Shown here in pieces: positions 8,641 through 28,012 of a stretch of 64,000 bases of DNA. Positions within the stretch are counted from its first letter, which is position 1. Each line of letters opens with the position of its first letter. This stretch comes from Rhizophagus irregularis (taxonomy: Eukaryota; Glomeromycota; Glomeromycetes; Glomerales; Glomeraceae). The notes below the pieces were generated by a model. It was not told the DNA's origin. It did no database searches and saw only the letters and a program-made list of their open reading frames with translations. A program made the translations under genes and the position numbers. The stretch lies in assembly GCF_026210795.1 (NCBI RefSeq), contig NC_089431.1:1612001-1676000 (forward strand). Direction: 5' to 3'.

Positions 8641-9042
8641 CAATTTTTAAGCAAGAAAGAACATTCTATAAAAGTGCAATATCACCTTATGGGTGGGTGG
8701 GTGGCACGTCACGTTATTGTAATGACTTGAAATGATTGACATGTCATGATAGGTTAACGTTAACTTAACATTAACATAAGATTAGTTTTTGGGTGATTTC
8801 CATTTTAAGATGCTGATCCCCATCTTTGGTATTGATTTGCTGATTATATAAATACATTTCAAATCAAGCTTTTCTATTTTAGTATGATCGGCAACCAACA
8901 AATCTTTTAGTGTTTTAATTACATTTCGCAAACGTTTTTAGGATCAGTTAAACGGTCGGTCAAATGGTCGGTCAGAGGTCTTTGACCGACTGATATCAGT
9001 CACGGTCATGACCGGTCATAACCGGTTAATGACCGTGACCGT

Positions 9043-9535
9043 TGTTAACAGGTCCGTCTCAGACTCTGTCAACTATAACTAAACGTTAGGGAGTCAATAG
9101 CTATAACGTAGTTTATATCAGCAAGTCACGCAAAAACACAATACGCAAAATATAACACAATCACAGTTCATTTTTAATATAAGAGTTTATTAAATAGTTA
9201 ATACAAGTTAATCCCTAACTTATACTATCTATTTTCTATCTATCTGACACACTGACACACACTTTAATTTAAGAAAAATCAAAAGATATTTATATAAAAA
9301 TAAAATATAAATAAAATAATATAACTAAAATAAATAAAGTAAATAAAATAAATGTAATAAATAAAAGAAATAATAAAAATAATAAAAATAACATAAATAA
9401 TATAAATAACAAAAATAACAATTGTAACGTTAATCAGATCTACAAAATTATTTGATTACATAATGATTGATCTACTAATTAATCATCTGATTTTTGAATC
9501 ACGTGATTTTTACTGCGCCATAATCTTCGTTATCA
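9043..9535 (-). repeat. gypsy-A 3' LTR
   Basis: Same length as the copy at 28013-28505, with two differences seen (9170 A versus 28140 G; 9258 C versus 28228 T). In the element's own sense it starts TGATAACG and ends CCTGTTAACA. The bases just upstream in that sense (GTGAGGGAGATT, near 9536-9547) form the polypurine tract that primes plus-strand synthesis. Confidence 0.9.
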
Positions 9536-9929
9536 AATCTCCCTCACTAAATTTTGAGTTCCCACGAAAAATAATTAAAGCCAAATAAATTTTATCTTGT
9601 CTTTTCACTTCACTCCCAACCCGCTAGTAAATGAAAAAAACTGGTCATCCATGTAATACCAAAACAGTAGGCCCTCGAAAGGGACACGAACCAAAGTCCA
9701 TGTAAAGCTAAGGTATTAGCCTTCTCAAATGTGGCCATCAAATGATCAGGACACGGGTGACATCGATCCTGGGAAGAAATTCATTATCAATTTAAAAGAA
9801 AATCATGAATTATGGGATCGGGATGGGCTGGTAAATCATCAGAAAATTGTTGTAAGTTTTTTTCCATAAATGTTAAAAATCTGGTAACCTAATTAAGATT
9901 TTTCTCGTCTCCTTTCTTTTCTCGTCATC
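9536..9929. other. gypsy-A 3' untranslated region, upstream of the antisense ORF
   Basis: No complete gene is seen. On the plus strand 9752-9850 is open for about 30 codons and ends at a GTAAG, so it could be a first exon of the antisense gene at 9930. This is only a possibility. Confidence 0.3.
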
Positions 9930-10637
9930 ATGGTATACAAGAAATACAATAACCAGAAATCTACGCCAAGAGAACGTATCAGACTAACTAAAAAGAAAAA
10001 TAAATGTAGTTCTCAAAAAACCCATAATAAGCGGTTTTTTGTTCGCAAATCTAAGAAAGAAAAAGAAGAAGGAAAGGAAACGCAAAAATTATCACAAAGG
10101 GCAGTTCGAGTGGCCTCTGAATTTTTTCTTCAAAACAGGGAACTTCGTGAAGAAATAATTCAACTACGTCAAGAAGTTCAAGAACTTCAGGAGGAAGTAC
10201 AAGTCCGAGAAGATTTTTCGATTATAAAATTTTCTCAAGAATCTCAGGTGCGACAAGAACTTCAACAACAAGTTCAACAACTGCAACAACAATTATCGTC
10301 GCTCCAGGAGCAACTCCAAGAAGCTTCGTCACGTGACGAATTAGTTGAACAACAACAAGCTCCTCCTCCTCCTCCTCTTACTAGTTCCGAACAGTATCAA
10401 CTAGTCGTCGAGAATGAAATTATGTTGAATGATATCCAGGAACGTGACGATTTCATTCAACGGCTTAAAAATGAGAGAGTAAATGAACATCTTGCTTTTT
10501 GTCGGCAAATTTCAGCTTTGAAGGAAGATTGCAATAGGTTGCGTCGGGAAAGAAATGCTGCACACCATAGGGCTGAAGGGATGATAGTTTTGCTTAGAAA
10601 TAGAGATAATTCTCGTAATCCTCCTTCTTCCGTATAA
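9930..10637 (+). CDS. antisense coiled-coil ORF inside gypsy-A (235 aa)
   Basis: The ORF lies between the integrase side and the 3' LTR of gypsy-A, on the opposite strand to every other gypsy-A gene. The first 60 residues are rich in Lys and Arg (RLTKKKNKCSSQK) and could bind nucleic acid or act as a nuclear signal. Residues about 65-145 are Glu/Gln/Leu heptads (LREEIIQLRQEVQELQEEV), a clear coiled coil. A Pro run follows, then a second charged helical stretch. It begins with ATG, has no internal stop and ends shortly before a long A/T homopolymer at about 10706-10734. I know no function. It could be a captured host gene or an element-encoded antisense protein. Confidence 0.5.
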   Translation: MVYKKYNNQKSTPRERIRLTKKKNKCSSQKTHNKRFFVRKSKKEKEEGKETQKLSQRAVRVASEFFLQNRELREEIIQLRQEVQELQEEVQVREDFSIIKFSQESQVRQELQQQVQQLQQQLSSLQEQLQEASSRDELVEQQQAPPPPPLTSSEQYQLVVENEIMLNDIQERDDFIQRLKNERVNEHLAFCRQISALKEDCNRLRRERNAAHHRAEGMIVLLRNRDNSRNPPSSV

Positions 10638-10897
10638 TTTTCTTTTCTATTATGTAATCATCTTTTATTATTTTGTTATATAATAAATATAATATATATA
10701 TGATAAAAAAAAATTTTTTTTTTTTTTTTTTTTTCGTATAAAATTTTGTAAATTTTCTGGGGCATTGAGTCACATATTCATGCTGATCATTTTTGATCAG
10801 TTTGTTCAACATAAAAACTAATTTGATTTGTCGATCGTCATTGATTTCTAATTTTGTCAATCATTCACGATTAATTTATCGATTTTAAGGATTATCA

Positions 10898-11299
10898 TTA
10901 ACTAAATTCAGCTCCACATAATAATCGAAATTCTTGTGACTTTAACTTTTTCAACATCATAAAAGTTACTAATTTTGTTCTAAATATTTGTTCTACTCCT
11001 ATATTAAGAAAAATATGATAGGTCCTAATACATCCTTGATAAAAGTGTGTCGTCATTCTAGATCTAAATAAAGTTTTCTGAGCACGTGATAATATTTGAT
11101 TTTCTAATAATTGTCCAAGTTTATAAGCATAAAATAAAGTGTATTGTCTCCTTTTTAGTCGTGAATATCTTTGTAATAATTGATAGTATTGGATAAATTT
11201 TTGGTCTGATGATGATTCGTCATTTACAGGATCTACAGGAAAAATTATTTCTATTGGTTCAATTTCCATTAAATCGTTGAAAATATCTACTGGAGTCAT
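10898..11299 (-). CDS. gypsy-A accessory ORF downstream of integrase (133 aa), unknown
   Basis: The ATG lies 30 bases after the integrase stop, in the same frame class as integrase. The protein has an acidic N-terminus and then a helical, basic part (LLQRYSRLKRRQYTLFYAY). There is no zinc knuckle, signal peptide or clear membrane segment, so it does not look like an envelope protein. The position between integrase and the 3' LTR is where some LTR elements carry an extra gene. Function is unknown. Confidence 0.5.
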   Translation of the reverse strand: MTPVDIFNDLMEIEPIEIIFPVDPVNDESSSDQKFIQYYQLLQRYSRLKRRQYTLFYAYKLGQLLENQILSRAQKTLFRSRMTTHFYQGCIRTYHIFLNIGVEQIFRTKLVTFMMLKKLKSQEFRLLCGAEFS

Positions 11300-11329
11300 T
11301 TTGAAAATTATTTCTTATTTACTGAACGT

Positions 11330-12610
11330 CTAGTCTTTTATATTATTTATAACAACCATAGGTTGCCAATTTTGTCGATCATGATATAATTTAAGTAACG
11401 TTCCATTAACTGGAGTTATTAAAACTCGTCCTTCCAAAGTTCTTAATTTGTATGATCCATTTAATAAAACTTGATGGATGTAAAATGGTCCTTTCCATTT
11501 AGGGTCTAATTTTCCAGACCATTGTTTTTCTTTAGCTGCATTAAAATAAAGAACTTTGTCTCCTATTTGGTAAGAAATATTTTTCTTTAATTTTGCGTCA
11601 TGTCGATCCTTTTGTTTCTGCTGTGATTTATTGATCTGCACACGTGCCTCTTCTCTGATTTGTGGTACATCATCAATTAAATGTTTGACACGTTTTAATA
11701 AAGTATCAGAATTATTACACAAATTATCATCATTATCTATTGGTAATTTTGCTGATCGTCCATATACTAAAAAGAAAGGTTCTATTTTTGTTGAAGAATT
11801 TTTACTGGTTCTATATGCAAATAAAATTGGTGCGATAAATAAATCCCATTCATCAGTATCTGTTGCAGTTTTTGCTAAAGCTTCGCATAGTGTTCTATTA
11901 AATCGTTCCACTAATCCATTTGTTTGTGGATGATAAGGAGTAGAAAAATGATGTTTAATTTGAAATCGCTGGGTAAGACTGTCGATCATTTTATTATTGA
12001 AATGAGATCCTCTATCTGATAAAATTCTTGAAGGACATCCATGTTGACAAATAATATTTTCATAAATAAAGGTAGCAACATTTTCTGCTGTAGCTTCTGA
12101 TAAGGCTTTCGCTTCAGGCCATTTTGTTAAATAATCTATTGCGACTACAATATATCTATTACCTTTTTTAGAGCGTGGTAAAGGTCCTACTATATCTATT
12201 CCAATTTGATAAAAAGGTTCAAAGGCAGGTATTGGGTGTAATGGTTCTGTTCTTTTATACTTTCCCCTTCTTTGACATTGATCACATGCTTGAACATACG
12301 CTCTTATATTTTCATACATTTGAGGCCAGTAATACCTGGAACGTATTTTCTCAAACATTATATCTGTAGCAAAATGTCCAGCTGTTGGATCATTATGCAT
12401 CATAAAAAGAACAGGTTCTGCTTCATAGTTTCTGATTACTCTGAGTAAATTGTTTTGTTGTCTTTTGTCTATTTTGTAGATAAAGTTATTTTTGATGATA
12501 AAATTTTTAGAAAAATTAATAAATTTGCGCTTTTGTTGTGTTGTTAAATTTGGTGGTAGTTGTTGTGATTGTAAATATTGATAAAGGTTTTGGTATTGTT
12601 GTAGTTCCAT
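11330..12610 (-). CDS. gypsy-A integrase (426 aa)
   Basis: The integrase joins element cDNA to host DNA. Residues about 70-115 hold the HHCC zinc-binding module (HNDPTAGHF, then CDQCQ). The catalytic core follows: first Asp in IGIDIVGPL, second Asp in LSDRGSHFNN, Glu in TNGLVERFNRTL, giving D,D-35-E. A C-terminal segment with GDKVLYF and KWKGPFYI resembles the GPY/F region. I see no chromodomain. It is its own ORF, separated from RT-RNase H by about 120 AT-rich bases, and has no internal stop. Confidence 0.9.
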   Translation of the reverse strand: MELQQYQNLYQYLQSQQLPPNLTTQQKRKFINFSKNFIIKNNFIYKIDKRQQNNLLRVIRNYEAEPVLFMMHNDPTAGHFATDIMFEKIRSRYYWPQMYENIRAYVQACDQCQRRGKYKRTEPLHPIPAFEPFYQIGIDIVGPLPRSKKGNRYIVVAIDYLTKWPEAKALSEATAENVATFIYENIICQHGCPSRILSDRGSHFNNKMIDSLTQRFQIKHHFSTPYHPQTNGLVERFNRTLCEALAKTATDTDEWDLFIAPILFAYRTSKNSSTKIEPFFLVYGRSAKLPIDNDDNLCNNSDTLLKRVKHLIDDVPQIREEARVQINKSQQKQKDRHDAKLKKNISYQIGDKVLYFNAAKEKQWSGKLDPKWKGPFYIHQVLLNGSYKLRTLEGRVLITPVNGTLLKLYHDRQNWQPMVVINNIKD

Positions 12611-12731
12611 ATTGTTTTGATTGATTATTATTAAAGGTTTTGTTGTTTTAATTGGTTAATAATTGAATTGGATAATTATATAGATAATAAATAAATAATA
12701 ATAATAAATAATAAAATAAAAAAAAGAAAAT

Positions 12732-14036
12732 TTAATAAAGATGGGAAAAGAAATTAAATCGATATTTCCTTTGAGAGTGTTCCCAAAATGGTTCATTAAT
12801 TAAATATTCAGGTTTAAATTCAGGTTGAATAATGTTGAATTTCTTAGGAATTCTTTGTGGTCTACTATATCCATCATTTTGTACTTCATAAATATTCTTT
12901 TCTTCGCCAATAATTGCTAGAAAACATTCAGCTGAATTAATAGGTTCTTCTGTTGGATTAATTCTTGAGAGAGCATCTGCATTGGCATTGGCTTTTCCAG
13001 CTCTATGCTGAATAGTAAAATCATATTGCTGTAGTTGCATAATCCATCTCGCTCTCCTTCCAGTTGGAATTTTTGAAGTTTGTAACCATTTGAGGGCAGA
13101 ATGGTCAGTAACTACTGAGAAAGGTAATAATCCTAAATAATGCTGAAAATAATTAATTGCCCATACAATAGCCAAACATTCTAGGTCTGTTACAGCATAG
13201 TTTTGTTCATGTTTATTTAAACTTCTACTTGCATAAGCAACTACATATTCTTTTCCTTCTTTATCTTTTTGAGAGAGTACAGCTCCTAATCCTGTTCCAG
13301 AAGCATCAGTATATAAAATAAAAGGTTGTTCAAAGTCGGGATACCTCAAAATAGGTGCTGAGATTAATCTTTCTTTCAGGTGTTCAAATGCTTTCTGTTG
13401 CTTCTCTGTCCATTGAAATGGAGTTTCTTTTTGTAATAACTTAGAGATAGGCTTCGCAATTTTAGAAAAATCCTTGATAAATTTTCTGTAATAGGAGAAT
13501 AATCCTAAAGCCGATCTAATTTCAGTAACAGAGGTGGGTGCAGGAAAATTTCTAATCTTCTCTATTTTTGAAGGATCAACTCTTATACCATCTCTTCCTA
13601 CGATATGTCCAAGGAAAGCAATACTAGGAAGGCAAAAATAACATTTCTTCAGCTTAATTTTTAAATTAGCATTTCTGAGCGCTTGGAAAACTTGAGTAAT
13701 ATTATCCAGATGTTGTTCAAAGGTCTTTGAGTAAATAATTATGTCATCTAAATAAACAGCCACGAATTTTCCCAAAAACTCTTGTAATACATAGTTCATT
13801 AACCTTTGGAAGGTTCCTGGAGCATTCCTCAATCCAAAAGGCATGACGTTAAATTCATATAATCCAAAATCTGTTATAAAAGCTGTTTTTTCCTTGTCTT
13901 TAGGATCCATTTCCACTTGCCAAAAGCCACTAGCAAGGTCTAATGTAGAGAACCAATTAGCAGTTCTGAAGGATTCAAGCAAATCATCGATACGAGGTAA
14001 GGGATATGCGTCAGGTTTTGTAACTTTATTGAGCGG
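12732..14036 (-). CDS. gypsy-A reverse transcriptase/RNase H, downstream part (interrupted by gypsy-B)
   Basis: This part continues the RT whose beginning lies at 26186-24948. RT motifs are visible: FSTLDLASGFWQVEM, MPFGLRNAPGTFQRLM and the catalytic YLDDIIIYS. The thumb follows (LGHIVGRDGI), then RNase H (LYTDASGTGLGAVLSQ with the first Asp, LECLAIVWAI, VVTDHSALKWL). The ORF ends at 12732. The reading frame runs on to 14036, exactly where the gypsy-B LTR starts. Removing gypsy-B and one GCGG restores the VDYRPLNK motif in the same frame, because the insert plus duplication is a multiple of three. As it stands the RT cannot be made as one protein. Confidence 0.88.
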   Translation of the reverse strand, partial: PLNKVTKPDAYPLPRIDDLLESFRTANWFSTLDLASGFWQVEMDPKDKEKTAFITDFGLYEFNVMPFGLRNAPGTFQRLMNYVLQEFLGKFVAVYLDDIIIYSKTFEQHLDNITQVFQALRNANLKIKLKKCYFCLPSIAFLGHIVGRDGIRVDPSKIEKIRNFPAPTSVTEIRSALGLFSYYRKFIKDFSKIAKPISKLLQKETPFQWTEKQQKAFEHLKERLISAPILRYPDFEQPFILYTDASGTGLGAVLSQKDKEGKEYVVAYASRSLNKHEQNYAVTDLECLAIVWAINYFQHYLGLLPFSVVTDHSALKWLQTSKIPTGRRARWIMQLQQYDFTIQHRAGKANANADALSRINPTEEPINSAECFLAIIGEEKNIYEVQNDGYSRPQRIPKKFNIIQPEFKPEYLINEPFWEHSQRKYRFNFFSHLY

Positions 14037-15147
14037 TGAGATCCCCCAATTCCCTCTGTCATCAATTTACAGAGTTGCCACATCGAACGGGCATTCCCAT
14101 GGTCGAACGAACGAATAAACGAACGAACGAACAATTAAACGAGCGAGCAATTAATCAACAACATAATTAACAAACAATATAATCAACAAACAACACACAA
14201 CAACATATAACAGCAACATTCTTGGTTCACAACATAAATAACGTTAGTAATATAAAACGTCGAACGATATAAAATAAAATTTAACTTCTCTAAATTTTCC
14301 CCAAATTATATCCACTTTTACCTTTAATTTCAAACTTCGATAGCTCTCGCTACGAATTATTACTTTTCAAAAACGTATATTTAATTCATCTTAAATTTCC
14401 ATTTTATTCAATTAAAATTAATTAAGCAAACATTAATTAAAGTTTAGGGCGAACCTATTACCTTTAATTAATATTAAACTTCACTAATAAGTAATTAAAT
14501 GAAACTTATATTTTTATTGAGTTCTGTGGATGAGAACTATGGAATTACCTTGAATTCCGCTCTCTATATATACAATTTTTATGCTACTTTCTATTCTATC
14601 TATATACTATCTTTTATGTTCTTTTTACATATTATCTTTGAATTATCTTTCTAATATACTATCTATATTTTAAATACGCTATCTTTTAATATGCTATCTT
14701 TTAATATGCTATCTTTTTATATATGTTCTTTTTAATATATTATCTTTTACGTTCCATCTTTATACTATCTTTTTATATTATCTTTTACATTATTTTGTGT
14801 TCTTTAATCTTTCTGACATTATTTTATATGTTCTTTTAATTCGCTTTATGTGTTTTGCTTATAATCTATCTTTTGTGGCTTATAATTATTCTTTCTTATC
14901 GTTCTTATTGTTAAAGATCGCTAAGCCGCAATTGATCGACTCTATTTATCCTATTGGTTCTTTGTCAATCATTTGATAAATATTACATCATGTAGATCAT
15001 TACTCTTCCTAAATGTTTATCCTTTTCGGCTAATTATTTATCCATCTACGCCAATTCATAATCAATTTGTTCGTTCTTAATATTTGGCAATTACATTTGG
15101 TGATTGGATTTTATCATCTTTTCGTGCTTGATATTCGACCGTTTACA
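14037..15147 (-). repeat. gypsy-B 3' LTR
   Basis: 1111 bp, with no difference found by eye from the copy at 23833-24943. It contains a CGAA microsatellite (about 14103-14135) and long TATCTTTTA-type low-complexity sequence. Next to it (15148-15165) the minus strand reads GAAGAGGGGGATAA, a good polypurine tract. Short ORFs in it are not genes. Confidence 0.92.
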
Positions 15148-15223
15148 TTATCCCCCTCTTCGCTATTTGTGACCTCACAAATAACTTTAATAGAATCGAA
15201 CTCGTGTCTTATCCATAATAATT

Positions 15224-16450
15224 TTAATCGAATCGAACTCGGGTCTTATCGAATACCTCTTTTCCTTTAATTACTATTTTTGGTGTAAATCCCCTTCGAT
15301 CATAAAATTTCTTTAACCATTCTCCATTTTGTGGTGTTTTTAGTATTCTTCCGTCTAATTCTTTGAGTTTATACGCTCCATTTCCAAATTCTTCGTGAAT
15401 TAAATATGGTCCTTTCCATTTGTTCTGCAATTTTCCAGACCATTGTTTTTCTCTCCACGCTTCGTATAATAATACTTTTTCTCCTATTTCAAATTTAGGT
15501 TTCCTAATTCCTCTTTTGTCATGTTGTTGTTTTTGTTTTTCTTGAGCTTCTTCCACGTTCTCTTTCATTTTTCTTCTTATTACTGGTAGCTCCTCAATTA
15601 GTATTTTTACTCTATCAGCTAACGTTATCTTGTTTTCATCTTTGTCTAATGGTAGTTTCGCTCTCCTTCCGTATGTTGCGTAAAAAGGTTTAATTCTTGT
15701 TGATGATTGCTTCTTTGTCCTATATGCAAATAATACGGATGGTATATGCTTATCCCAATTTTCTTTTCCTAATTTGGCTAATCCTTCGCATAAAGTTTTA
15801 TTGAATCTTTCGACTAAGCCATTTGTTTGTGGCCTATATGGTGTACTTAATCTATGATTTATTCCACATCTTTCTACTAATTCTTCCATCATTTTATTGT
15901 TAAAGTGAGTCCCTCTATCGCTAATTATTTTCTTTGGACATCCATGTCTACAAATTATGTCCCTCCAAATAAATTCTACTACCTCTTTTGCTGTAGCTTC
16001 TTTTAGTGGTGCGGCCTCAGGCCATTTTGTAAAATAATCCATTGCTACTACAATGTACTTATTTCCCTTTTCTGTCTCTTTTAATGGTCCAACTATATCT
16101 ATCCCGATCATTTCAAATGGTTCATTTACCTTTATTGGCATCAATTCGTTCTTTCCTCTTGGTTTTCCTCTCATTTGACAATTCCAACACGTTTTTACAT
16201 ATTCTTCTACATCTTCTTTCATATTTTTCCACCAATAATTTTCTTTTATTCTATCTAATGTCGCTTCTACTCCAAAATGTCCTGATAATTCGTTATCATG
16301 CATCATGTACATCAATCCTTCGTATTCATAATCCCTGATTACTCTAAATTTGTTTTGTCCTTTTACTCTATATAGAATTCCTTCTTTCAATTCATATTTA
16401 TTCTCCTTTTCGATATTGTCAATTATTCTCTTGTAATTATTTTCTTCCAT
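15224..16450 (-). CDS. gypsy-B integrase (408 aa)
   Basis: An N-terminal zinc module (HDNELSGHFG then CWNCQ) is followed by the catalytic core, with Asp in IGIDIVGPL, Asp in ISDRGTHFNN and Glu in TNGLVERFNKTL. The C-terminal part has GEKVLLYEA and KWKGPYLI. It is a separate ORF in the same frame as RT-RNase H-kinase, 61 bases below its stop, with two in-frame TAA codons between them. How it is translated is unclear; reinitiation or proteolysis after readthrough are options. It acts with gypsy-B cDNA in the nucleus. Confidence 0.92.
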   Translation of the reverse strand: MEENNYKRIIDNIEKENKYELKEGILYRVKGQNKFRVIRDYEYEGLMYMMHDNELSGHFGVEATLDRIKENYWWKNMKEDVEEYVKTCWNCQMRGKPRGKNELMPIKVNEPFEMIGIDIVGPLKETEKGNKYIVVAMDYFTKWPEAAPLKEATAKEVVEFIWRDIICRHGCPKKIISDRGTHFNNKMMEELVERCGINHRLSTPYRPQTNGLVERFNKTLCEGLAKLGKENWDKHIPSVLFAYRTKKQSSTRIKPFYATYGRRAKLPLDKDENKITLADRVKILIEELPVIRRKMKENVEEAQEKQKQQHDKRGIRKPKFEIGEKVLLYEAWREKQWSGKLQNKWKGPYLIHEEFGNGAYKLKELDGRILKTPQNGEWLKKFYDRRGFTPKIVIKGKEVFDKTRVRFD

Positions 16451-16510
16451 AATACCTCTTTAATTGATTTCGCTTCTAAATTTGTTATTTTCGTTATGTG
16501 TTCTGTATTT

Positions 16511-18592
16511 TTAGTTCTGTGCTCTTCTCCATTTCTCCACCTCTTTAAATACTTTTCTCCAACTACTATTGTCATTTTTAACTTTTACTCGACTGTATCT
16601 TTTAGTATCTTTGTACACGCCCTGATTTTCTTCAAACATTCTAACCATGTCCAAATATTCATCCTTCTTTAATGTCGGATATGATGATTTTTCCGTTTTC
16701 TTTGTTTCTCTTCCAATGTAATTTTTCCAACATACGTCGCCATCTTTTTCTAAAAATATCACTATTGATTTATCTATTGTTTCTTTCAATCTGAATATTT
16801 CTTTTTCCATCTCATGATTTCCATGTGGAGTAATTAATCCTCTGTCAAAACTTTTCGTCTTTTGATAATAATATTCACAATATGGTGATTTGTCTAAAAT
16901 TATTATATCTGTATCTTCGTCATATTCTAGCATTCTTCTGTTTATTTGTTCCACTACTTCTTTTCTGAATTTCCATTCTGTCTCCATCTTTGATTCATAA
17001 AATTCATCTTTATCTTTTCTTCTTCTCTTATAAGTGTTGAATCTTACTTTTAATCCTTGCTTTTCCCATTCTTCAATTAAATTTTGTACTATACTTGTCT
17101 TTCCTAATCCATCTACTCCGTCGATTATTACTATTTCTGGTTGATCCTCTACTATCTTTAATAACCTACTTAATGCGTCGGCGTTCGTATTTTCTTTTCC
17201 CGACCTATGTATTACTTCAAAATTATATTGCTGTAATTCCATCACCCATCTTGCTCTTTTTCCTTTTGGTATCTTTGCATTCATTAATCCTTTTAATGCA
17301 CTGTGATCTGTTATTACTTTAAATTTTCTATCGATTAAATATTTATGAAAATGTTGAATTCCCCAAACTATTCCTAAACATTCCAATTCTGTTATCGGAT
17401 AATTTTCTTCTGCTGGTAATAAACTTCTACTTGCATATGCTATTACTACTTCTTTTCCTTTTTCATCTTTTTGACTTAATACTGCACCTAATCCTTTCCC
17501 TGATGCATCTGTTATTAATAAAAATTCTTTCTTCCAATCTGGATGTTGCAATATTGGATATTGTATTAACTTTTCTTTCAATTTTTCAAACGCTTCTTGT
17601 TGTTCTCTTCTCCAAATGAAAGGTATTCCCTTCTTTCTCAAATCACTTATTGGTCTTGCTATCTTTGAAAAATTCTTCACAAATTTTCTGTAATATGAAC
17701 AAAGTCCCAAAAATGATCTTACTTCTTTCACTGTTGTTGGTGCCTTCATTTCTTTTATCTTTTCTATCTTTTTATCGTCTGGCCTTAATCCATCATTTCC
17801 TACTATATGTCCTAAAAATTCTATATTTCTTTCCAAAAATCTACATTTCTTTAGTTTTATTATTAAATTATTCTCCTGTAACTTCTTTAATACTTTTTCC
17901 ACATGTTCCATATGGTCTTTTAAATTTTCTGAATATATCATAATATCGTCAATATATACTACTACAAAATCGTTTATGTATTCTTCTAATATTTCATCCA
18001 TTAATCTTTGAAATGTTGCTGGTGCATTAGTTAAACCGAACGGCATTACATTATACTCAAATAATCCTTTTGAACATACAAATGCTGTTTTTTCTTTGTC
18101 TTCTTCTTTCATTTCTACTTGATTAAATCCTGCCGCTAAATCTATACTTGAAAACCATTTTGCTTTTCTGTATTTGTCTAACAATTCATCCATTCTTGGT
18201 AAAGGAAAACTATCCATTATAGTTATCTTGTTTAACTTTCTGTAATCAATACAGAATCTATATTTTCCCATTTTCTTTCCTGCTAACGTAACCGGTGAAC
18301 TCCATGGACTTTTTGATTTCCTTATCCTTCCTTGTTTTAACAATTTATCCACTTCTTCGCTTATAAATTTTGCCTTTTCATCTGTTTCTTTGTATCTTCT
18401 TTGCTTTATTGGTTCTACCCCCTCTTTTATTTTTATCTCATGTTGCGCCGCTTTTGTTCTTCCTTCTATCTCTTCGTCATATTCCAAAATATCTTGGTAT
18501 TCTAATAGTAATTTTACCATATTTTCCCAAATTGGTTCTTCTACTTTCCCTATACTTAGTTTTTGCATAAATTTTCCACTTGGTTCGAGCAT
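16511..18592 (-). CDS. gypsy-B reverse transcriptase-RNase H fused to a thymidylate-kinase-like domain (693 aa)
   Basis: Residues about 75-300 are the RT: CIDYRKLNK, FSSIDLAAGFNQVEM, MPFGLTNAPATFQRLM and the active site YIDDIMIYS. Residues about 370-480 are RNase H (ITDASGKGLGAVLSQ, LECLGIVWGI, VITDHSALKGL, NADALSRLL). Residues 486-693 do not belong to any gypsy Pol I know. They start EIVIIDGVDGLGKTS, a Walker A loop of the thymidylate-kinase form. About 75 residues later comes IILDKSPYCEYYYQ, which resembles the DRY...S..AYQ motif of that family. A TPHGN stretch and an Arg-rich C-terminal helical part follow. The fusion is in frame with no stop. The likely role is phosphorylation of a deoxynucleotide for cDNA synthesis, but this is inferred. 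The frame is -1 relative to protease; the ATG is 35 bases after the protease stop. Confidence 0.9.
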   Translation of the reverse strand: MLEPSGKFMQKLSIGKVEEPIWENMVKLLLEYQDILEYDEEIEGRTKAAQHEIKIKEGVEPIKQRRYKETDEKAKFISEEVDKLLKQGRIRKSKSPWSSPVTLAGKKMGKYRFCIDYRKLNKITIMDSFPLPRMDELLDKYRKAKWFSSIDLAAGFNQVEMKEEDKEKTAFVCSKGLFEYNVMPFGLTNAPATFQRLMDEILEEYINDFVVVYIDDIMIYSENLKDHMEHVEKVLKKLQENNLIIKLKKCRFLERNIEFLGHIVGNDGLRPDDKKIEKIKEMKAPTTVKEVRSFLGLCSYYRKFVKNFSKIARPISDLRKKGIPFIWRREQQEAFEKLKEKLIQYPILQHPDWKKEFLLITDASGKGLGAVLSQKDEKGKEVVIAYASRSLLPAEENYPITELECLGIVWGIQHFHKYLIDRKFKVITDHSALKGLMNAKIPKGKRARWVMELQQYNFEVIHRSGKENTNADALSRLLKIVEDQPEIVIIDGVDGLGKTSIVQNLIEEWEKQGLKVRFNTYKRRRKDKDEFYESKMETEWKFRKEVVEQINRRMLEYDEDTDIIILDKSPYCEYYYQKTKSFDRGLITPHGNHEMEKEIFRLKETIDKSIVIFLEKDGDVCWKNYIGRETKKTEKSSYPTLKKDEYLDMVRMFEENQGVYKDTKRYSRVKVKNDNSSWRKVFKEVEKWRRAQN
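16514..17137 (-). other. P-loop nucleotide kinase domain within gypsy-B Pol (thymidylate-kinase-like)
   Basis: Residues 486-693 of the fused protein, about 208 aa, close to the usual length of a whole thymidylate kinase. GVDGLGKT (492-499) fits GxDGxGKT. ILDKSPY (565-571) stands where DRY/DRS is expected, with Lys for Arg. Deoxynucleoside kinases share this fold, so the substrate cannot be fixed from the sequence. Confidence 0.75.
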
Positions 18593-18627
18593 CTTTTCCG
18601 TCTCTCTCTCTTCAGAGCCAAGACTTT

Positions 18628-19131
18628 CTATTTAAAATTCTGGTGCATTTTGAATACCTCTCCTTCATCGTTGCTTTCATATTCTTCGTCATCCTCGCTC
18701 TCCTCACTTTCATATATTGCTTCTCTTTCATATCCTACTGGAATCGTTATTATTTCTCCTTGTTCTTCTATTCTTAAGGTATGATCTTCAAAATTTATTT
18801 TTGCATTATACAGCTTCCATATATCATTTCCCAAAATTAGATCCTCTTCTTCTGAATCGATTACTTCAACTTCTTTTAGTATTTCTAATTCATCTTTGTA
18901 TCTCAAAGTTATATTTGCCTTTCCTAACGCTGCTATCTTTTGCCCATTTGCTATTGTACATCTAAATTTACTTTTTCCAAATATAGGTATATTCAATCTC
19001 CTCCTTAATTTGTCTGTTATCACACTTACTGCTGCTCCAGTATCTATTATTACATTCACTAATTGATCTTTAACTTCTAATTCTGTTCTCATTGCTGTAG
19101 TTCTTTTCTCTTCATTTTTCATAGTTCCCAC
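18628..19131 (-). CDS. gypsy-B aspartic protease (about 167 aa)
   Basis: A retropepsin-type protease that would cut the Gag and Pol precursors. The active site is VIIDTGAAVSVIT; ILGNDIWKLY corresponds to the second conserved Gly-rich region. The frame is the same as gag and is open from the gag stop onward. The listed start is a GTG; the first ATG is at 19122. The protein is therefore most likely made as Gag-protease by readthrough of the gag UGA. An acidic tail (SEESEDDEEYES) ends at TAG. Confidence 0.85.
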   Translation of the reverse strand: MGTMKNEEKRTTAMRTELEVKDQLVNVIIDTGAAVSVITDKLRRRLNIPIFGKSKFRCTIANGQKIAALGKANITLRYKDELEILKEVEVIDSEEEDLILGNDIWKLYNAKINFEDHTLRIEEQGEIITIPVGYEREAIYESEESEDDEEYESNDEGEVFKMHQNFK

Positions 19132-19137
19132 CGAGTG

Positions 19138-19143
19138 TAGTCA
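19138..19143 (-). promoter_or_regulatory. probable stop-codon readthrough site UGA-CUA between gag and protease
   Basis: The gag stop is TGA followed directly by CTA, then C. UGA-CUA is a well-known leaky context in viruses and cellular genes. Protease follows in the same frame with no further stop, which is the arrangement expected for programmed readthrough. Confidence 0.6.
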
Positions 19144-22100
19144 ATTTTTCTCGTTTATGCTTCTTGGTCTATATGTTCCTTCTCTCAATTGTTTATGATA
19201 CTTAGTATTCTCATTTATCATTTGTCCAATTGTTATATTCGCTCTACAATTTTTCACGTCTTCCACAATATCGTAAGGTGGTATTCCATCAGTTAATCTT
19301 GGTCCATATTCTCTGGGCTTTCCTGTCCCTGATGGCTTTGTTCTAACCCAATTTCCAAATTCATCTTGCCGCATTCCAGGGTAAAATGCTTTGCCTTCTT
19401 TTGTGAACATTGGTTTATAAAATCTTCCATCTTTTGTCATGGGTCGCCGACCATAATTATAATCTTCTGGTCCTATTGGATTATCCCAATTTTGACTATC
19501 TTTGTATACATTATTTTGTTCTATCCTTTCGGGCGTATATCTTGGTGTTGTTGTTCCACTTGGTATTTCTCTATCATCCATTCTATTTCCCGCTTCTCTT
19601 AATTCTTCTTGTAAATTTCCTTCTTCACCATTATTTTTATATCCCACTACTGGATTCGTCCTTCTTGTTTGTCTTCTTGTCTTTACTGCGTTATCTTTTG
19701 CGTATAATTCATTATGATAATTTAATTCCCTATCTTCATAATCATCGTAATAACCTTGTGTATAATACATTTCACCGTATTGTGGTTCCTCATCTTCATA
19801 TCCATTATAATCATATTCTTCTTGATCATAATACTCGTCCATCATATTCACTCCTACATTCCTTCTTTTCTCTGGACACTCTCTTGAATAATGACCAGCT
19901 CTACCACATGTATAGCATGTCGGTACTCTTTTTTGGAATGACTGATTTCTTTGAATTGGTTGATTTCTTTGCATTGGTTGGTTTCTTTGCATTGGTTGGT
20001 TTCTTTGTGGCAATCGCCTATAGCTCTGACTCGCTAAATTTCTTAATCTTTCATTCTCATCTTCTAACATCTTAATTTGTAACTTCGCAAAACTGTCTGC
20101 TAATTCATCTACACTTACCCCTTTATTATTCCTTACATTCCCTTGAACAATAGGTTCTTGTCTTCTTTGTTCATCATTAATTCCTTTTGGTTGTACTTTA
20201 TCTGTTAATGCTTCTAAACCTCTTTCTACGTTTTTTGCTATCTGAAATGTTGCATTTAGATCTGCTGGATTTCCCATTACTACGTCTTTAGTAAAGTCCG
20301 GTTTTAATCCTCTAATAAAAATTCTCTTTTGCTGATTTGCTGCTACTGCTGCATCACCTCCCGCTCTCTTTAACATATATTTAAATCTCGTAAGGTATTG
20401 AGTTACATTCTCGTCTCCCTGTCTAATCTTTTCTAATTGTTCTAGCCATCTATCTTTAATTTCATCGCTTGCATACTTTCCAATTATTCTTACTCTTAAT
20501 CTTAAATTATGATCTCCATTAACATTCCAATCGACAATATTTACTCCTTCAGTCTTTAACCAATCTGCTGCTCCTCCCATTAATTTCGCTTTTGCTAATC
20601 TAAATCTCTGTGCGTCATCATTCCCTAAACCATTCGCTGTAAATGTCTCCTCAAATTTATCTGCCCATTCTTCTGGATCTTCTCCACTGGTACCATAAAA
20701 TACTGGTATTTCCACAATAGCTCCCCTATTTGCGTTTAAATTTTCTATTGCATTAGTATTCGCTTGAACTTCTCCTTGTAATCCTGTCAATGTTACTGGT
20801 GGTAATGCTAAATTGTTCCAATCTGCCCCAATATCATGATTATACATAGTATTCATTAGTGCTCTTAGATCCGCTCTGAGTTCATCTCTTGATGCTGCCA
20901 TTGTTATCTTTGGTTTTATTGGTGGTACTGGTATTATTGGTATTATAGGTGTTTTCTTCAATTCTTTGTTTTCCTTTTTGCTTTTTGATTTTTTACTTGA
21001 GCCAATTTCGGGTCCTTTTATATCCTCTTCCACTTCATCTTCATTATCTATTGGATTTTCTTTATCAATATCTTTTTCACATTCTATGCAAGTTTCTTTT
21101 CCAATTTTGAATTCTTTCTTTAATCTTTCAATTTCACATCTTTCACATTCTTTTGTGTTTTCAACTCTCCATTGTAATATTTGTTCATCTAATTCTTCAT
21201 CTTCAAGATTCCATATTGTTAAATATTTCTTCATAAATTCATATGTTGTTATTATCTTTGCGGTTACTCCAAATTTTCTTATTCTTTCAATTTCCGTTAT
21301 TTCTACATCATATCCCATTCTTTTCAAATCCATTCTAATTATTTCTTCGAATATCTTTGTTGTTTCTGTTTCTTCAACATTATTAGATTCAATAGATTCA
21401 TCAGATTCCTCATCTGACATTTCTTCATTTTTACTAATCGGTAAATTTCCTTCTTTCTCATCGTCTGTTTCTGTTATAGTATAGCTTCTTGGTGTATCAT
21501 CACTATCTGTTTCATCTATATTTAATTGTTCAAACCCTCTAATCTTATCATAAACTTTTTCAACTATCTCTTTTCTAATTCCCCAACCATGTTCACGAAC
21601 TCTTATGTGCATTGTGTGCAACATTAATCTAATTTTTTGTTTGAACGCTTCTATCTTTTCTGTTGACTCATCTTCTTTTAATTCAGCTTCTTCATATAAT
21701 ATATTTTTGTATCTTCTAATAGTGCTATCCTTACATTCTATAAAATCTGTTATAGCTTCTTTATACCATTCATAAAATTCCCCAAATCTTATATTCACAT
21801 CCCAATCTTCCAAAATATAACCATATCTTATTAATTCTTCATTCCCTATCAATCTGTCCATTGTTTCATCTTCTTTATCATTTTCTATACAATCTCTCAC
21901 GATTACTATTATTATTATCTTTAATCCTTTCTCTCTTAATACTGGTTGTTTCAAGTATCTTATCGATTCGACCATTACATCTAATGCATCTCTAGTCCTT
22001 CCTTTTGTATAATTATTTCTTTCTTCACTATCTATACTTAATAAATTTAATAACGCTCTTATAGTTTCTGCGTTATAATCTTTTATCGTATATTCAAATT

Positions 22101-22275
22101 TTTGCAATATTTTCCAAAATTTCTTGAAAACTTCTGGTGTATCTCTTATTGGATAACATATTTCACATGTTATATTTTCTCCTCTTAATTCGTCTATATC
22201 TATATTTCCGATATTTTCGTCATGTCTTAATTTGTGGTTCTCATAATCGACCCTCCAAGTTTCATACCATTCCAT
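19141..22275 (-). CDS. gypsy-B Gag (1044 aa)
   Basis: The structural protein of the intracellular particle. Residues 1-110 hold a CEICYP motif and a helical region that recurs in gypsy-A Gag. Residues about 260-460 are long, acidic and low in complexity, with two CxxC-type pairs (CERCEIERL, CIECEKD). The central part from about 540 to 740 is a retrotransposon Gag capsid region (IPVFYGTSGEDPEEWADKF, YLTRFKYMLKRAGG). The CCHC knuckle CYTCGRAGHYSREC lies near residue 810, after RNQPMQRNQPMQ repeats. The C-terminus (GIPPYDIVEDV) matches the sequence that begins gypsy-A Pol. Plus-strand ORFs of 172 and 221 codons opposite it are shadows. Confidence 0.88.
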   Translation of the reverse strand: MEWYETWRVDYENHKLRHDENIGNIDIDELRGENITCEICYPIRDTPEVFKKFWKILQKFEYTIKDYNAETIRALLNLLSIDSEERNNYTKGRTRDALDVMVESIRYLKQPVLREKGLKIIIIVIVRDCIENDKEDETMDRLIGNEELIRYGYILEDWDVNIRFGEFYEWYKEAITDFIECKDSTIRRYKNILYEEAELKEDESTEKIEAFKQKIRLMLHTMHIRVREHGWGIRKEIVEKVYDKIRGFEQLNIDETDSDDTPRSYTITETDDEKEGNLPISKNEEMSDEESDESIESNNVEETETTKIFEEIIRMDLKRMGYDVEITEIERIRKFGVTAKIITTYEFMKKYLTIWNLEDEELDEQILQWRVENTKECERCEIERLKKEFKIGKETCIECEKDIDKENPIDNEDEVEEDIKGPEIGSSKKSKSKKENKELKKTPIIPIIPVPPIKPKITMAASRDELRADLRALMNTMYNHDIGADWNNLALPPVTLTGLQGEVQANTNAIENLNANRGAIVEIPVFYGTSGEDPEEWADKFEETFTANGLGNDDAQRFRLAKAKLMGGAADWLKTEGVNIVDWNVNGDHNLRLRVRIIGKYASDEIKDRWLEQLEKIRQGDENVTQYLTRFKYMLKRAGGDAAVAANQQKRIFIRGLKPDFTKDVVMGNPADLNATFQIAKNVERGLEALTDKVQPKGINDEQRRQEPIVQGNVRNNKGVSVDELADSFAKLQIKMLEDENERLRNLASQSYRRLPQRNQPMQRNQPMQRNQPIQRNQSFQKRVPTCYTCGRAGHYSRECPEKRRNVGVNMMDEYYDQEEYDYNGYEDEEPQYGEMYYTQGYYDDYEDRELNYHNELYAKDNAVKTRRQTRRTNPVVGYKNNGEEGNLQEELREAGNRMDDREIPSGTTTPRYTPERIEQNNVYKDSQNWDNPIGPEDYNYGRRPMTKDGRFYKPMFTKEGKAFYPGMRQDEFGNWVRTKPSGTGKPREYGPRLTDGIPPYDIVEDVKNCRANITIGQMINENTKYHKQLREGTYRPRSINEKN

Positions 22276-23832
22276 CGTTGTAATCGTTCATCCAGAATCT
22301 TAACTAAAATCTCACCTCCTTTTATATATTTATACTTCACTCTTATCGTTTTTATTTTCAATCTTCTATGTTTCTATTTTCAATCTTCTATGTTTCTATT
22401 TTCAATCTTCTAAACATTCTTTCATCTTTAAATAGATTGCTTCTTTCAATCTTTAAATTTCAATTTTATATATTTACTACGCCATATTCTACTATTAATT
22501 TTTACTGCGCCTCAAAATTTCAAAAATTATTCTAAGTCCACAATCTCCTCAGGCTGTGGAGGTTTTTTACTGCGCCATAAAACTTATCTTTTATCACCGA
22601 TATCCATAATTTCACATGTCACAAACTCCAAAATTTTCATAACTTTTAGAGTTCGCGGATTTCCAATCTTTCTTATCGTCCACATAAATCCTTCCTACTA
22701 TATATTCTATATTATATAAATTAATCTATAGTACACATAATGTCGTTCTTTTCAGATAAATGTCCTTCTTTTCAAATAAATGTTCTTTTTCAGATAAATA
22801 TTCTTTTTCAAATAAATGTTCTTCTTTTAAATAAATGTCCTTCTTTTAAATAAACGTCCTTCTTTTCGGATTTTACTCTATTATTAAATACTGCACGTAA
22901 TGTTCATTATACGGCTCGTTAATGTGTAAATATCCTTCTATTTTATCTTCTTTTAACGGAACATTGTAATGAGAGCGTGAACTAGGACACTACACCAGGA
23001 ACCTTCGTCTGAAATGTAGCCTAGGACCTGTAACAATACAACGTATCCATTTTTCCTCCTTCGTTGGTCGACTTGTCTCTTAACGGGTGAATCTAACCTT
23101 CCAAAATCCAGTTTCAAAAGTCATCAGCTATCCATAAAACTCATCTAAACCAACTTATCTTTCCTCAAATTGGTGGACCTATACTGGGCTTATCTCTATC
23201 TTTTTCCCATTGGGTAAAAGCATGATAGTTTACAGGTTTGTCCCATTTTATCCATTCAATGTTTCTTGATAGTAGGTGTCTTTACAATCTTCATTCCCCG
23301 TCCCCAAAGCAATTTGCGCATTATTGAGCTGGGTATCCAGATTTGACGTAACCCATACGTTATAATCCTTAATGTCGAAGAATAAAAATTTTCCAATTTC
23401 GAGCATTTATCCAAAATTCAAACTCAGAGGTAACCCATACCACACAGATGAACCCCAGATAATACATTGGTGTTCTCCCATTATTAATCTTTATTCCAAA
23501 ACTCATCTTTCACTTCCACATCTCCTTATAAAATTTCTCAGGTACTTTATTCCCGAAAGAAATATTCTTGTGCTTTCTATCAATTAGGTGATTACTTGCA
23601 CAACAACAAACTTCAATCTTTCACCTTTTCAAGTTTTTTACTCAATTAAATCCTTATTGATTTATTGGTTCCTTTTGAACTCGTTAAAACCTGAAATCTA
23701 AAAATAAATTCTAAAATAAAATATTGATTAATAATACCTATCAGTGACTTACTAACGAAATTAAATTTTCATATTCATTATAATAATAATCATGTGATGA
23801 TGATCATTTCCTTTCTCGGAGCATGCACCATA
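22276..23832 (-). other. gypsy-B 5' leader and primer-binding site
   Basis: There is no gene in these 1557 bases. In element sense the 5' LTR is followed after two bases by TGGTGCATGCTCCGAG, which begins with TGG as a tRNA primer site should. Short tandem repeats of about 22 bp (CTTTTCAAATAAATGTTCTT type) lie at about 22744-22870. Such a long leader may hold packaging or internal-entry signals, but none is recognisable. Confidence 0.6.
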
Positions 23833-24943
23833 TGAGATCCCCCAATTCCCTCTGTCATCAATTTACAGAGTTGCCACATCGAACGGGCATTCCCATGGTC
23901 GAACGAACGAATAAACGAACGAACGAACAATTAAACGAGCGAGCAATTAATCAACAACATAATTAACAAACAATATAATCAACAAACAACACACAACAAC
24001 ATATAACAGCAACATTCTTGGTTCACAACATAAATAACGTTAGTAATATAAAACGTCGAACGATATAAAATAAAATTTAACTTCTCTAAATTTTCCCCAA
24101 ATTATATCCACTTTTACCTTTAATTTCAAACTTCGATAGCTCTCGCTACGAATTATTACTTTTCAAAAACGTATATTTAATTCATCTTAAATTTCCATTT
24201 TATTCAATTAAAATTAATTAAGCAAACATTAATTAAAGTTTAGGGCGAACCTATTACCTTTAATTAATATTAAACTTCACTAATAAGTAATTAAATGAAA
24301 CTTATATTTTTATTGAGTTCTGTGGATGAGAACTATGGAATTACCTTGAATTCCGCTCTCTATATATACAATTTTTATGCTACTTTCTATTCTATCTATA
24401 TACTATCTTTTATGTTCTTTTTACATATTATCTTTGAATTATCTTTCTAATATACTATCTATATTTTAAATACGCTATCTTTTAATATGCTATCTTTTAA
24501 TATGCTATCTTTTTATATATGTTCTTTTTAATATATTATCTTTTACGTTCCATCTTTATACTATCTTTTTATATTATCTTTTACATTATTTTGTGTTCTT
24601 TAATCTTTCTGACATTATTTTATATGTTCTTTTAATTCGCTTTATGTGTTTTGCTTATAATCTATCTTTTGTGGCTTATAATTATTCTTTCTTATCGTTC
24701 TTATTGTTAAAGATCGCTAAGCCGCAATTGATCGACTCTATTTATCCTATTGGTTCTTTGTCAATCATTTGATAAATATTACATCATGTAGATCATTACT
24801 CTTCCTAAATGTTTATCCTTTTCGGCTAATTATTTATCCATCTACGCCAATTCATAATCAATTTGTTCGTTCTTAATATTTGGCAATTACATTTGGTGAT
24901 TGGATTTTATCATCTTTTCGTGCTTGATATTCGACCGTTTACA
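23833..24943 (-). repeat. gypsy-B 5' LTR
   Basis: The second 1111-bp LTR and, in the element's sense, the promoter-bearing one. It is followed by GCGG (24944-24947), the duplicated target, and then by the broken RT of gypsy-A. Confidence 0.92.
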
Positions 24944-24947
24944 GCGG

Positions 24948-26186
24948 TCTATAATCAACACACATTCGCAGGTCTCCTCCTTTCTTGTCTACTATTACTA
25001 CTGGTGCAGCCCATGGGCTCATGGATTTCTTTATCATTCCTTGTTGTTCCAACTTCTTTATTTCTTCTCTAAGGAATTCTTTCTTCTTAGGGTTAGTTCT
25101 GTAGGGACTTCTTGCTTGAGGTGCAGCGTCTCCAGTGTGGATTTGATGTTTAATTAATCCAGTTCTCCCAATATCAGTCTGGCTCTTTGCACAAATATCT
25201 TCATTGTTGTTCAATATTTGTTGGAATCGTGTCTGTTGATAATCTGTAAGCGGTCCAACATGTAGGTCTTTTTGGATATTCCACTCATTTCCTTTTTCTG
25301 CTTGAGCTAAGAATAGTGCAGGATTATCAGTTTTATCTTCATCATCTTCAGTTAGGTAATCATTTAAAATATCTTCTAATAAATTATATTGGTCAGGAAT
25401 TTCCTCCTTTTCATCCCAAGGGTTATAGTTTAGTGGTTGTTGATACCATTGTTCCCATATTTCTTCATCTTCACTTGATTCACTATTAAGAAGGTGAATC
25501 TCTTTTTCAATTAGGTCATCCTCATACTCATATTCATCAAAAATTTCGTCTATTTCATTGTCAATTTCTTCTTCTTGGAAAGATACATATCTGGGAACTT
25601 CTCCAATATGAATTGAAATAGGTGCAAGAATAGTTTTAGCTAGGAAAGTCAATTGAACTGATTTATTATTGAAATCAAGTACAGCTCTGGTACGCCTAAA
25701 CCAGTCAGTTCCTAAGAGTAGGGTTTCATCCTTTGAGTCAATAACATGGAAAGTGGTAGGGATAAGGAGAGTTTGAATTACTATAGGTACTTTTTCTATT
25801 TGTCCTAAGGCTCTGTTTCTTGTCCCATCCGCAGTGACTACAATAGTGTTGGAGGGTTTAGTGATTTCCAATCTCAACTTTCGAGCAAGAGATTTGGTGA
25901 TAACACAAACAGCAGCTCCTGAATCTAAAATTGCATAAACAGGATCTCCTTTAATTCTCACTGCACATTTCACAGCAGTGGTGTCTCTAGTATCACCTTC
26001 TTCCGAATCAGAGATTCTATCTACATAGTTAGTTTCTTGAGTCTTAGGTGGTCTTCTCAAAATTCTGGCAAAATCTTTCTTTTGGTCGTTATATTTCAAA
26101 AGTTGTCCAATCTTTGCTGAAGATGGCATATTTAATATGTCATCTGAAATGCGATAAGGAGGCATCTGTTCAATAATTGAGGGCAT
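24948..26186 (-). CDS. gypsy-A protease and start of reverse transcriptase (upstream part of split pol)
   Basis: The ORF opens at 26186 (MPSIIEQMPPYRI). A retropepsin follows, with AILDSGAAVCVIT as active site and LLLGTDWF as second conserved region. After a long acidic linker the RT begins (IKKSMSPWAAPVVIVDK, GGDLRMCVDYRPL) and breaks off at the gypsy-B insertion; the rest is at 14036-12732. The frame is -1 relative to gag with 55 bases of overlap. Since gypsy-B Gag contains the matching IPPYDIVEDV segment in its own frame, the frame change here may be a recent single-base indel rather than a programmed frameshift. Confidence 0.85.
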
Positions 26187-27979
26187 TCTTGGGTTCTTTT
26201 AACAGTTCTTTTTGGTGGAACAGCAGGAGTCGCAGTTGTTTCAATAACTTCATCCATTGGAATATTGATATTTTGTCTTGGTTGAGGTCTTCTCAATCTC
26301 TGTTCTTGTTGTGATTCAGATGAAATAATATTTTCTACAGCTCTTGGTTGTTTAGGTTTTGGCCTATAGTTAGTGGTTGGTTGAGATCTAGAACGAGTAG
26401 TGACATAGGCTTCAGCTTCCTCATAATTGTCATCGTAATAATCTTGATAATATTCATCTTCATAATAATTATCATAAGAATCATAAGTTTCTTCATATGT
26501 TTCCAAATAATGAGCATCTCTTCTTTGAGGTCTTCTTGCATTTCTTTCTGACATACAATCTCTAGCGTAATGTCCTTTTTCTCCACATCTGTAGCATTCG
26601 ATATCTCTTATATCAGTTCTGGGTCTATTAGGTCTGAAAGTTTGGGTTAAATTATTTGGTTGAGTATATCTCGCAGGTTGGATTCTTCTAACAGGTTGTG
26701 GTTGAATGGGTTGAGTTTGAGCTAATAAAGCACTAGATAAATTTGCATAGTTAAGTGAAAGTTTCTGCATTTGTTGAGTTAATGCTTCAATTGCTTCCAT
26801 TTGAGGACTTTCAGTTTTTGCAGGTGTGGTTGATACAGTAGCTACTTTAGTAGCAATTCCAGTAACACTTGGTCCTAAATGTGCGTAATTTAATCCGATT
26901 TCAACTTTTCTTGCATTACCAATGACATCAGATAAAGTATTAGCATCTTGTAAATGTACCATAGGAGTGATAGTAGGAGTTAATCCAAAAAGGAACATTC
27001 TAATTTTCTGAGCATCAGGAATAGCATTGGTAGTATCGACTCTCTTTAATAACCTTTGGAATTTAGCGGCATAATCATCTACTGTTTCATTACTACCTTG
27101 TCTTAAGGTGAGTAATTCCTGATACCATTTATTTTTGCGAGTATCATTTGCAAAATATTTTTTAAAAAGGTCTGTAAAATTATTGCCAGTGTTTTGTCCA
27201 GATTCCCAGTGGTTACCTATTGTAGCAGAATTAGTATCATATCAATCAGATGCAGCACCTCTTAAATAAGAAGTTGCAACTGCTAGTTTTCTCTCAGGAG
27301 TAGTCCAACCATTAGTAGCAGCAGCCTTTTCAAAAATAGCTAACCATTCGATAGGATCTTCATCTTCTTTTCCAGAAAAGGGTTCAATTTTTGCAATATT
27401 ACTTCCTCTGCTCAAAAGATTGGCAGCATTATTACCAAAAACAGTTTGCAAAGCATTGGTGATAGCAGCTTCGTCAGCCATATTTTGATTATAAACAAGA
27501 GGGTTATCTATGAGATTATTAGGGTTATTATTTCTTTCAGTTTGGATATCAGTGTTAAGTTGAGCAACTAATTGAGGTGTAACAGGATTATTAAAATAGC
27601 TTGTTCTATGAGTAAGATTGAAGAAGAAAAATACTAGATTTCTGATAGGATCAGGTCTTTGCTGGTATCTAATACTAAAAAGTAGTTTACTAGATAGGAT
27701 TAAAACTTGGAGTCCTTTGATTCTATTGTTATCTAATTGAAATGCTTGACAGAAGATAGGTAAAGCCCTTATAGTGTAGGAGGTATAACTAACTGCAAAG
27801 AAGTAGTTACTAATCCAATTCCAGAAATTTTGAAAGGCAGATGGTAAAACAAGAGGTGGAGGATAACAGATACGACAAGAATGATCTACAGTAGTAGGTG
27901 GATTTATATTTGAAAGATGTTGAGCAGTATGGCGAGTAGTTAATTGTAATTGTTGTTCGAAATGATCTTGTATGGTCAT
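26132..27979 (-). pseudogene. gypsy-A gag with one premature stop
   Basis: The ATG at 27979 opens a Gag reading frame that is interrupted by a single TGA at 27244-27242 and then continues in frame to 26132. The N-terminus has HSCRICYPPP, matching the CEICYP region of gypsy-B Gag. A capsid-like part (IEPFSGKEDEDPIEWLAIFEKA, then WYQELLTLRQ beyond the stop) and a CCHC knuckle CYRCGEKGHYARDC follow. Tyr-Asp-Asn-rich sequence lies after the knuckle. The stop stands where Trp is likely (TGG to TGA). Without suppression no full Gag is made. Confidence 0.8.
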
Positions 27980-27984
27980 AAATC

Positions 27985-28012
27985 TCTTATGACCTGGCAG
28001 GAATCACCACTT
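27985..28012 (-). promoter_or_regulatory. gypsy-A primer-binding site
   Basis: In element sense the 5' LTR end is followed by AAG and then TGGTGATTCCTGCCAGG. The TGG start fits pairing with a tRNA CCA end. The gag ATG follows within about 35 bases, so the leader is very short compared with gypsy-B. Confidence 0.5.

Follow-up and report, generated by a model that had tools for sequence, protein, structure and literature searches.

A thymidylate/deoxynucleoside-kinase-like domain between RNase H and integrase in Ty3/gypsy retrotransposons of Rhizophagus irregularis

The stretch of DNA analysed here (the window) comprises 64,000 nucleotides of Rhizophagus irregularis contig NC_089431.1, positions 1,612,001 to 1,676,000, and contains a Ty3/gypsy long terminal repeat (LTR) retrotransposon that reads on the minus strand. 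Its gag, protease, reverse transcriptase (RT)-RNase H-kinase and integrase are found in four separate open reading frames (ORFs), in that order (Table 1). The third of these, an ORF of 693 amino acids at 16511-18592 on the minus strand, runs past the end of the RNase H part (ALSR, residues 473-476, at 17165) into a domain that resembles thymidylate and deoxynucleoside kinases. An earlier note on this DNA had described an ORF with complete RT and RNase H followed by a kinase P-loop, and had taken it for a nucleotide kinase fused to the Pol of a young gypsy element. Both descriptions are borne out, the latter for a nucleotide-kinase-like domain. The separate ORFs of gag, protease and integrase and the nesting of the element in another gypsy element go beyond that note. 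We know of no other gypsy Pol that carries a nucleotide kinase.

Table 1. Features of the kinase-bearing element in the window
Feature	Position	Strand	Remarks
5' LTR	23833..24943	-	1111/1111 bases same as 14037-15147; TG...CA ends; element reads on minus strand
3' LTR	14037..15147	-	1111/1111 bases same as 23833-24943; TG...CA ends
Target-site duplication GCGG, left copy	14033..14036		Abuts the 14037-15147 LTR
Target-site duplication GCGG, right copy	24944..24947		Abuts the 23833-24943 LTR
gag ORF, 1044 aa	19141..22275	-	Retrotrans_gag 26 bits (capsid), zf-CCHC 29 bits (zinc knuckle); long N-terminal extension
Aspartic protease ORF, 167 aa	18628..19131	-	gag-asp_proteas 37 bits
RT and RNase H portion of the kinase-bearing ORF	17165..18592	-	RVT_1 153 bits, RT_RNaseH 127 bits
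Thymidylate/deoxynucleoside-kinase-like domain, residues 484-693, same ORF as RT-RNase H	16514..17143	-	Profile, genome-search and fold matches
P-loop GVDGLGKT, residues 492-499	17096..17119	-	GVDGxGK[ST] in 15/15 aligned copies
LDKSPY motif, residues 566-571 (DR-type motif position)	16880..16897	-	DKSPY[CS]EY[YF]YQ in 15/15 aligned copies
Integrase ORF, 408 aa	15224..16450	-	Integrase_H2C2 77 bits, rve 55 bits; same frame as kinase ORF, beyond two stop codons

In its general plan the element is a typical member of the Ty3/gypsy group (Metaviridae), with paired LTRs ending in TG...CA, a short target-site duplication, a CCHC gag, an aspartic protease and RT-RNase H followed by integrase. The domain order gag, protease, RT, RNase H, integrase is present and all seven Pfam matches lie above their cut-offs. 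Unlike other members of the group it adds a kinase domain between RNase H and integrase, splits gag, protease, RT-RNase H and integrase among ORFs, and has an extended gag N-terminus.

We searched the same genome (146.7 Mb, 32 contigs) with the window kinase domain and obtained at least 151 matches; the best 150 of 172 candidates were scored, and the 150 rows used merge to at least 145 places on 30 of the 32 contigs. Among the matches listed, the top 56 are at least 94% identical to the query, 53 of them free of internal stops; the remaining principal groups show identities of about 85-88%, 59-66% and 53-57%. At least five families carry the kinase, judged from the fetched loci, and their neighbours and ORF joins differ. 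The possibility raised in the earlier note that all other copies lack the domain fails. An isolated or accidental insertion, or an artefact of assembly, has a negligible probability; nothing was found in its favour, and it is ruled out by this copy number and variety of contexts together with the selection data given below.

In the loci that were read the kinase lies between RNase H and integrase, or before the integrase. Family A, the window type, has the RT-RNase H-kinase ORF followed by integrase. Families B (L035, L036), C (L037, L038) and D (L040, L043) share this order with about 70 extra residues before the kinase, so that 89-93 residues separate the RNase H end motif from the P-loop, as against 19 in A; L043 was placed in D and has an RT close to that of B. 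In family E (L041, L042, L047) the RT-RNase H ORF ends separately and the kinase forms the N-terminus of a kinase-integrase ORF; L041 and L042 have this ORF at 593 amino acids, L047 in a shortened form of 459. The same 593-residue ORF occurs in L039, where the neighbouring ORFs on the RT side differ in kind and strand. A kinase about 83% identical to that of A stands behind the RNase H end and ahead of the integrase in L045, while in L046 the kinase part is damaged.

Some of the sequences bordering the kinase are also of note. In the window, two stops at 16462-16513 separate the kinase ORF from the integrase in the same frame, with an AAATTTA heptamer at 16483. The linker of B, C and D (L035:3625-3855 and the corresponding position in L036, L037, L038, L040 and L043) is a conserved stretch of about 70-80 residues from RNase H to kinase. 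In family B, an additional open region of about 110-120 codons, in frame with the kinase, lies between the kinase stop and the integrase start (L035:4483-4996).

The kinase is under purifying selection. Ratios of nonsynonymous to synonymous divergence (dN/dS), calculated by the Nei-Gojobori method (NG86), are 0.078-0.235 for the kinase in 11 pairs (eight between types and three within families), all far below 1, and 0.034-0.263 for RT in 10 pairs; single values are rough because dS is near or above 1 in many pairs, including most of those between families. A kinase held by selection across many copies and several families indicates that the lineage has been active, which agrees with the view in the earlier note that the fusion is part of an active element. 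A chance P-loop in a retroelement tail is excluded by copy number, selection and fold.

The kinase has also been exchanged between families as a cassette. In the RT tree the partners of B are L043 and D, and in the integrase tree, from which L043 was left out, they are D and C; the kinase tree joins B to A and L045 (support 100/99) and sets it apart from L043. Over the compared RT, RNase H and linker, as far as L035 position 3848, L035 and L043 share 96-100% identity; across the kinase this drops to 62-80%, and their integrases are 88.5% identical by BLAST. Compared with A, L035 is 52% identical in the first 100 bases, 62-84% in the remaining pre-kinase part and 81-92% inside the kinase. The jump in identity at the kinase borders and the conflict between trees show that the kinase segment was swapped as a block, in either direction.

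To describe which relatives carry the kinase we used two further searches. The kinase element is nested in a second, older gypsy element (9042-28505) with LTRs at 9042-9535 and 28012-28505 that are 99.6% identical; this enclosing element has its RT-RNase H at 12732-13982 and its integrase at 11330-12610, with no kinase between. With its RT as query (best 100 of 358 candidates scored), 57 of the 100 matches are followed on their own strand, no more than 1.5 kb downstream, by one of the 150 kinase rows, and 43 lack such a row. The 43 include all 24 matches at 72-100% identity to the enclosing element (10 at 99-100%, 14 at 72-79%). The second search used an integrase from family F (L054), which is kinase-less (best 102 of 511 candidates scored, 93 passing E 1e-150), and family E integrases fall outside its match list. 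None of the 23 matches at 85% identity or more to family F has a kinase row upstream, compared with 69 of the 70 at 57-63%. In a midpoint-rooted RT tree of 16 rows, with L057 (fetched for family F) left out, families A-F cluster as a single clade (100/99); the enclosing element, L055 and L056 lie outside it and have no kinase where read. The branching of family F relative to A, E and B-D is unresolved in this tree. A single clade of kinase carriers without F is not rejected (p-AU 0.296 for RT and 0.206 for integrase) and may exist, and the kinase may have been acquired only once.

The affinities of the domain were assessed with profiles, motifs and predicted structures. Thymidylate_kin (PF02223) matches residues 490-580 of the window ORF weakly, at 20.8 bits, and is found in all 15 aligned members at E <= 0.01 (best 2.5e-5); a 52-residue piece of a decayed relative from the genome search (L003, C6:4454486) scores 27.7 bits. 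The 15-copy alignment covers families down to 55% identity, and many of the 15 are near-identical. The deoxynucleoside kinase profile dNK (PF01712) does not match the window domain at E 0.1 or 0.01 and reaches one of the 15 members only (E 0.0025), the other 14 having no match at E 0.01. Identity to four aligned comparison proteins is 18-23%. PDB sequence searches gave weak matches only, largely covering the P-loop; yeast thymidylate kinase appeared at E 0.16 over positions 3-96. The P-loop has the acidic GxD/E residue of thymidylate kinases in all 15 aligned copies (GLEGAGK in E. coli Tmk), and the same 15 also keep the P-loop Lys and Ser/Thr, the DKS-motif Asp and the lid-region Arg R145.

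Both predicted models match deoxynucleoside and thymidylate kinases at the superfamily level in structure searches, and the overall fold agrees with PF02223 as well as with PF01712. The expectation in the earlier note of a P-loop kinase match thus holds for both models. The best structural matches of the window model are deoxycytidine (dCK), deoxyguanosine (dGK), deoxyadenosine (dAK) and insect deoxynucleoside (dNK) kinases, which is what would be expected if the domain were a salvage kinase making deoxynucleoside monophosphates (dNMPs) from scavenged deoxynucleosides, rather than a monophosphate kinase. DKSPYSEYFY also resembles DRTPLSSYFF of the L044 dNK (hhalign 96% over 139 columns). We consider a salvage kinase unlikely, as the second model ranks thymidylate kinase level with dCK, Pfam dNK hardly touches the aligned members and the P-loop is of the thymidylate kinase type. 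Deoxynucleoside kinases (PF01712; dCK, dGK, insect dNK, giant-virus dNK) have a catalytic Glu after strand 2, whereas the window domain has Asn at the position of the HET motif in a single hhalign profile alignment with L044. Human dCK occupies most of the listed rows in the structural match lists, so the absence of other families there means nothing. L044 itself is a free-standing deoxynucleoside kinase gene (L044:2185-3192, in C28:1221800-1227300; Pfam dNK 110 bits, GC 22.6%), and inspection by eye of the four ORFs listed across its 5.5 kb revealed no gypsy domain.

The same fold could instead serve to phosphorylate the ends of nucleic acids or some other acceptor, for example as a 5' polynucleotide kinase on cDNA or primer. 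One alignment shows a basic stretch, KRRR, without variation in all 15 of its copies (the family E copy L047 has RRKR), and some phage relatives are annotated as polynucleotide kinases. Searched by tblastn against phages, the window domain gave no match at E 0.1, while the L040 domain gave 141 records at E <= 10, of which the 20 listed share 25-33% identity with it (best E 0.002) and are thymidylate or polynucleotide kinases of phages. These labels are weak because records of one phage gene disagree, calling it a polynucleotide or a thymidylate kinase, and with nucleoside and nucleotide kinases as the top fold matches an end kinase appears improbable.

We therefore favour the reading that a Ty3/gypsy clade in this genome gained a P-loop kinase of the thymidylate/deoxynucleoside kinase superfamily at the RNase H/integrase junction and kept it as a working part, with a dNMP as the likely substrate; on balance this is probably correct. 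Several observations weigh against it. One related gypsy family of this genome, family F, lacks the domain. Compared with thymidylate kinases (PF02223; E. coli Tmk, phage Tmk), the window domain carries KRRR, has no aligned REPG-like motif, and in all 15 copies has DK in place of Asp-Arg (DR), a thymidylate kinase motif; both the ORF and the domain alone (19.6 and 19.4 bits) score less than the curated threshold of 27. PHROG 761 (thymidylate kinase) matches the isolated domain over residues 3-204 at E 3e-14 but also picks up the true dNK L044 (2.5e-17) and E. coli Tmk (7.3e-38), and so does not discriminate between the two classes. Foldseek places archaeal adenylate kinases beside thymidylate kinases for the window model (1.2e-5, lower TM-score), model confidence (pLDDT) is moderate at 77 and 83, and the two models are not independent, as their alignments (15 and 10 rows) have members in common. 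Thymidylate kinase, the identity proposed in the earlier note, thus stands at the level of the superfamily fold but not of the profile (19-21 bits against 27), and is one of two near-equal readings. Finally, in within-family pairs the constraint on the kinase is weaker than that on RT (dN/dS 0.143 vs 0.034, 0.140 vs 0.035 and 0.084 vs 0.043). This and the change from DR to DK would suit a pseudokinase, an ATP-binding or purely structural spacer within Pol, but the low dN/dS and the residues retained in all 15 copies, many of them near-identical, make it a very improbable explanation.

Regarding origin, the kinase and RT-RNase H parts both have a GC content of 30.2%, so composition gives no sign of recent foreign origin. 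Recent capture of a host thymidylate kinase was considered and rejected: the host has Thymidylate_kin matches above cut-off, in exon-like pieces, at C24 and C13, and these are not among the best 150 rows of the kinase search, although no direct comparison was made. Recent viral capture was likewise rejected, with no close relative in the phage searches and no relative of the domain in tblastn scans of viral_contigs and genome_contigs.

The gag protein of the element has a feature of its own. Its N-terminal extension (20917-22275, minus strand; 453 amino acids) has no Pfam match above cut-off, and is found elsewhere in the genome at about 79-100% identity in window-type copies and about 36-49% in others; it is possibly a second accessory domain.

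Retroelements need host deoxynucleoside triphosphates (dNTPs), and some hosts restrict them by draining the pool (SAMHD1-type restriction). The kinase would be translated as a C-terminal extension of RT-RNase H or, in family E, as the N-terminal part of integrase, and because of this joint translation it may be packed with RT in the virus-like particle and act beside it. In the particle it would add a phosphate to a DNA building block, most likely a dNMP such as deoxythymidine monophosphate (dTMP), for use by the adjacent polymerase, and the benefit would be a larger dNTP pool. Among nucleotide-pool enzymes, dUTPases are known from retroelements, and that of non-primate lentiviruses lies within Pol at this same RNase H/integrase junction. 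dUTPase hydrolyses dUTP and has an unrelated fold, whereas the P-loop kinase described here would make rather than remove a precursor. Tentatively, an element-encoded deoxynucleotide-making kinase may be an exchangeable pol cassette that feeds reverse transcription inside the particle, and a new pol accessory enzyme beside the dUTPases. If true, this would be a parallel to the lentiviral dUTPase, the two unrelated enzymes occupying equivalent positions in Pol. A dNTP-pathway kinase that is both selected and swapped among elements would point to precursor supply as a limit on transposition, and offers a defined protein for testing this.
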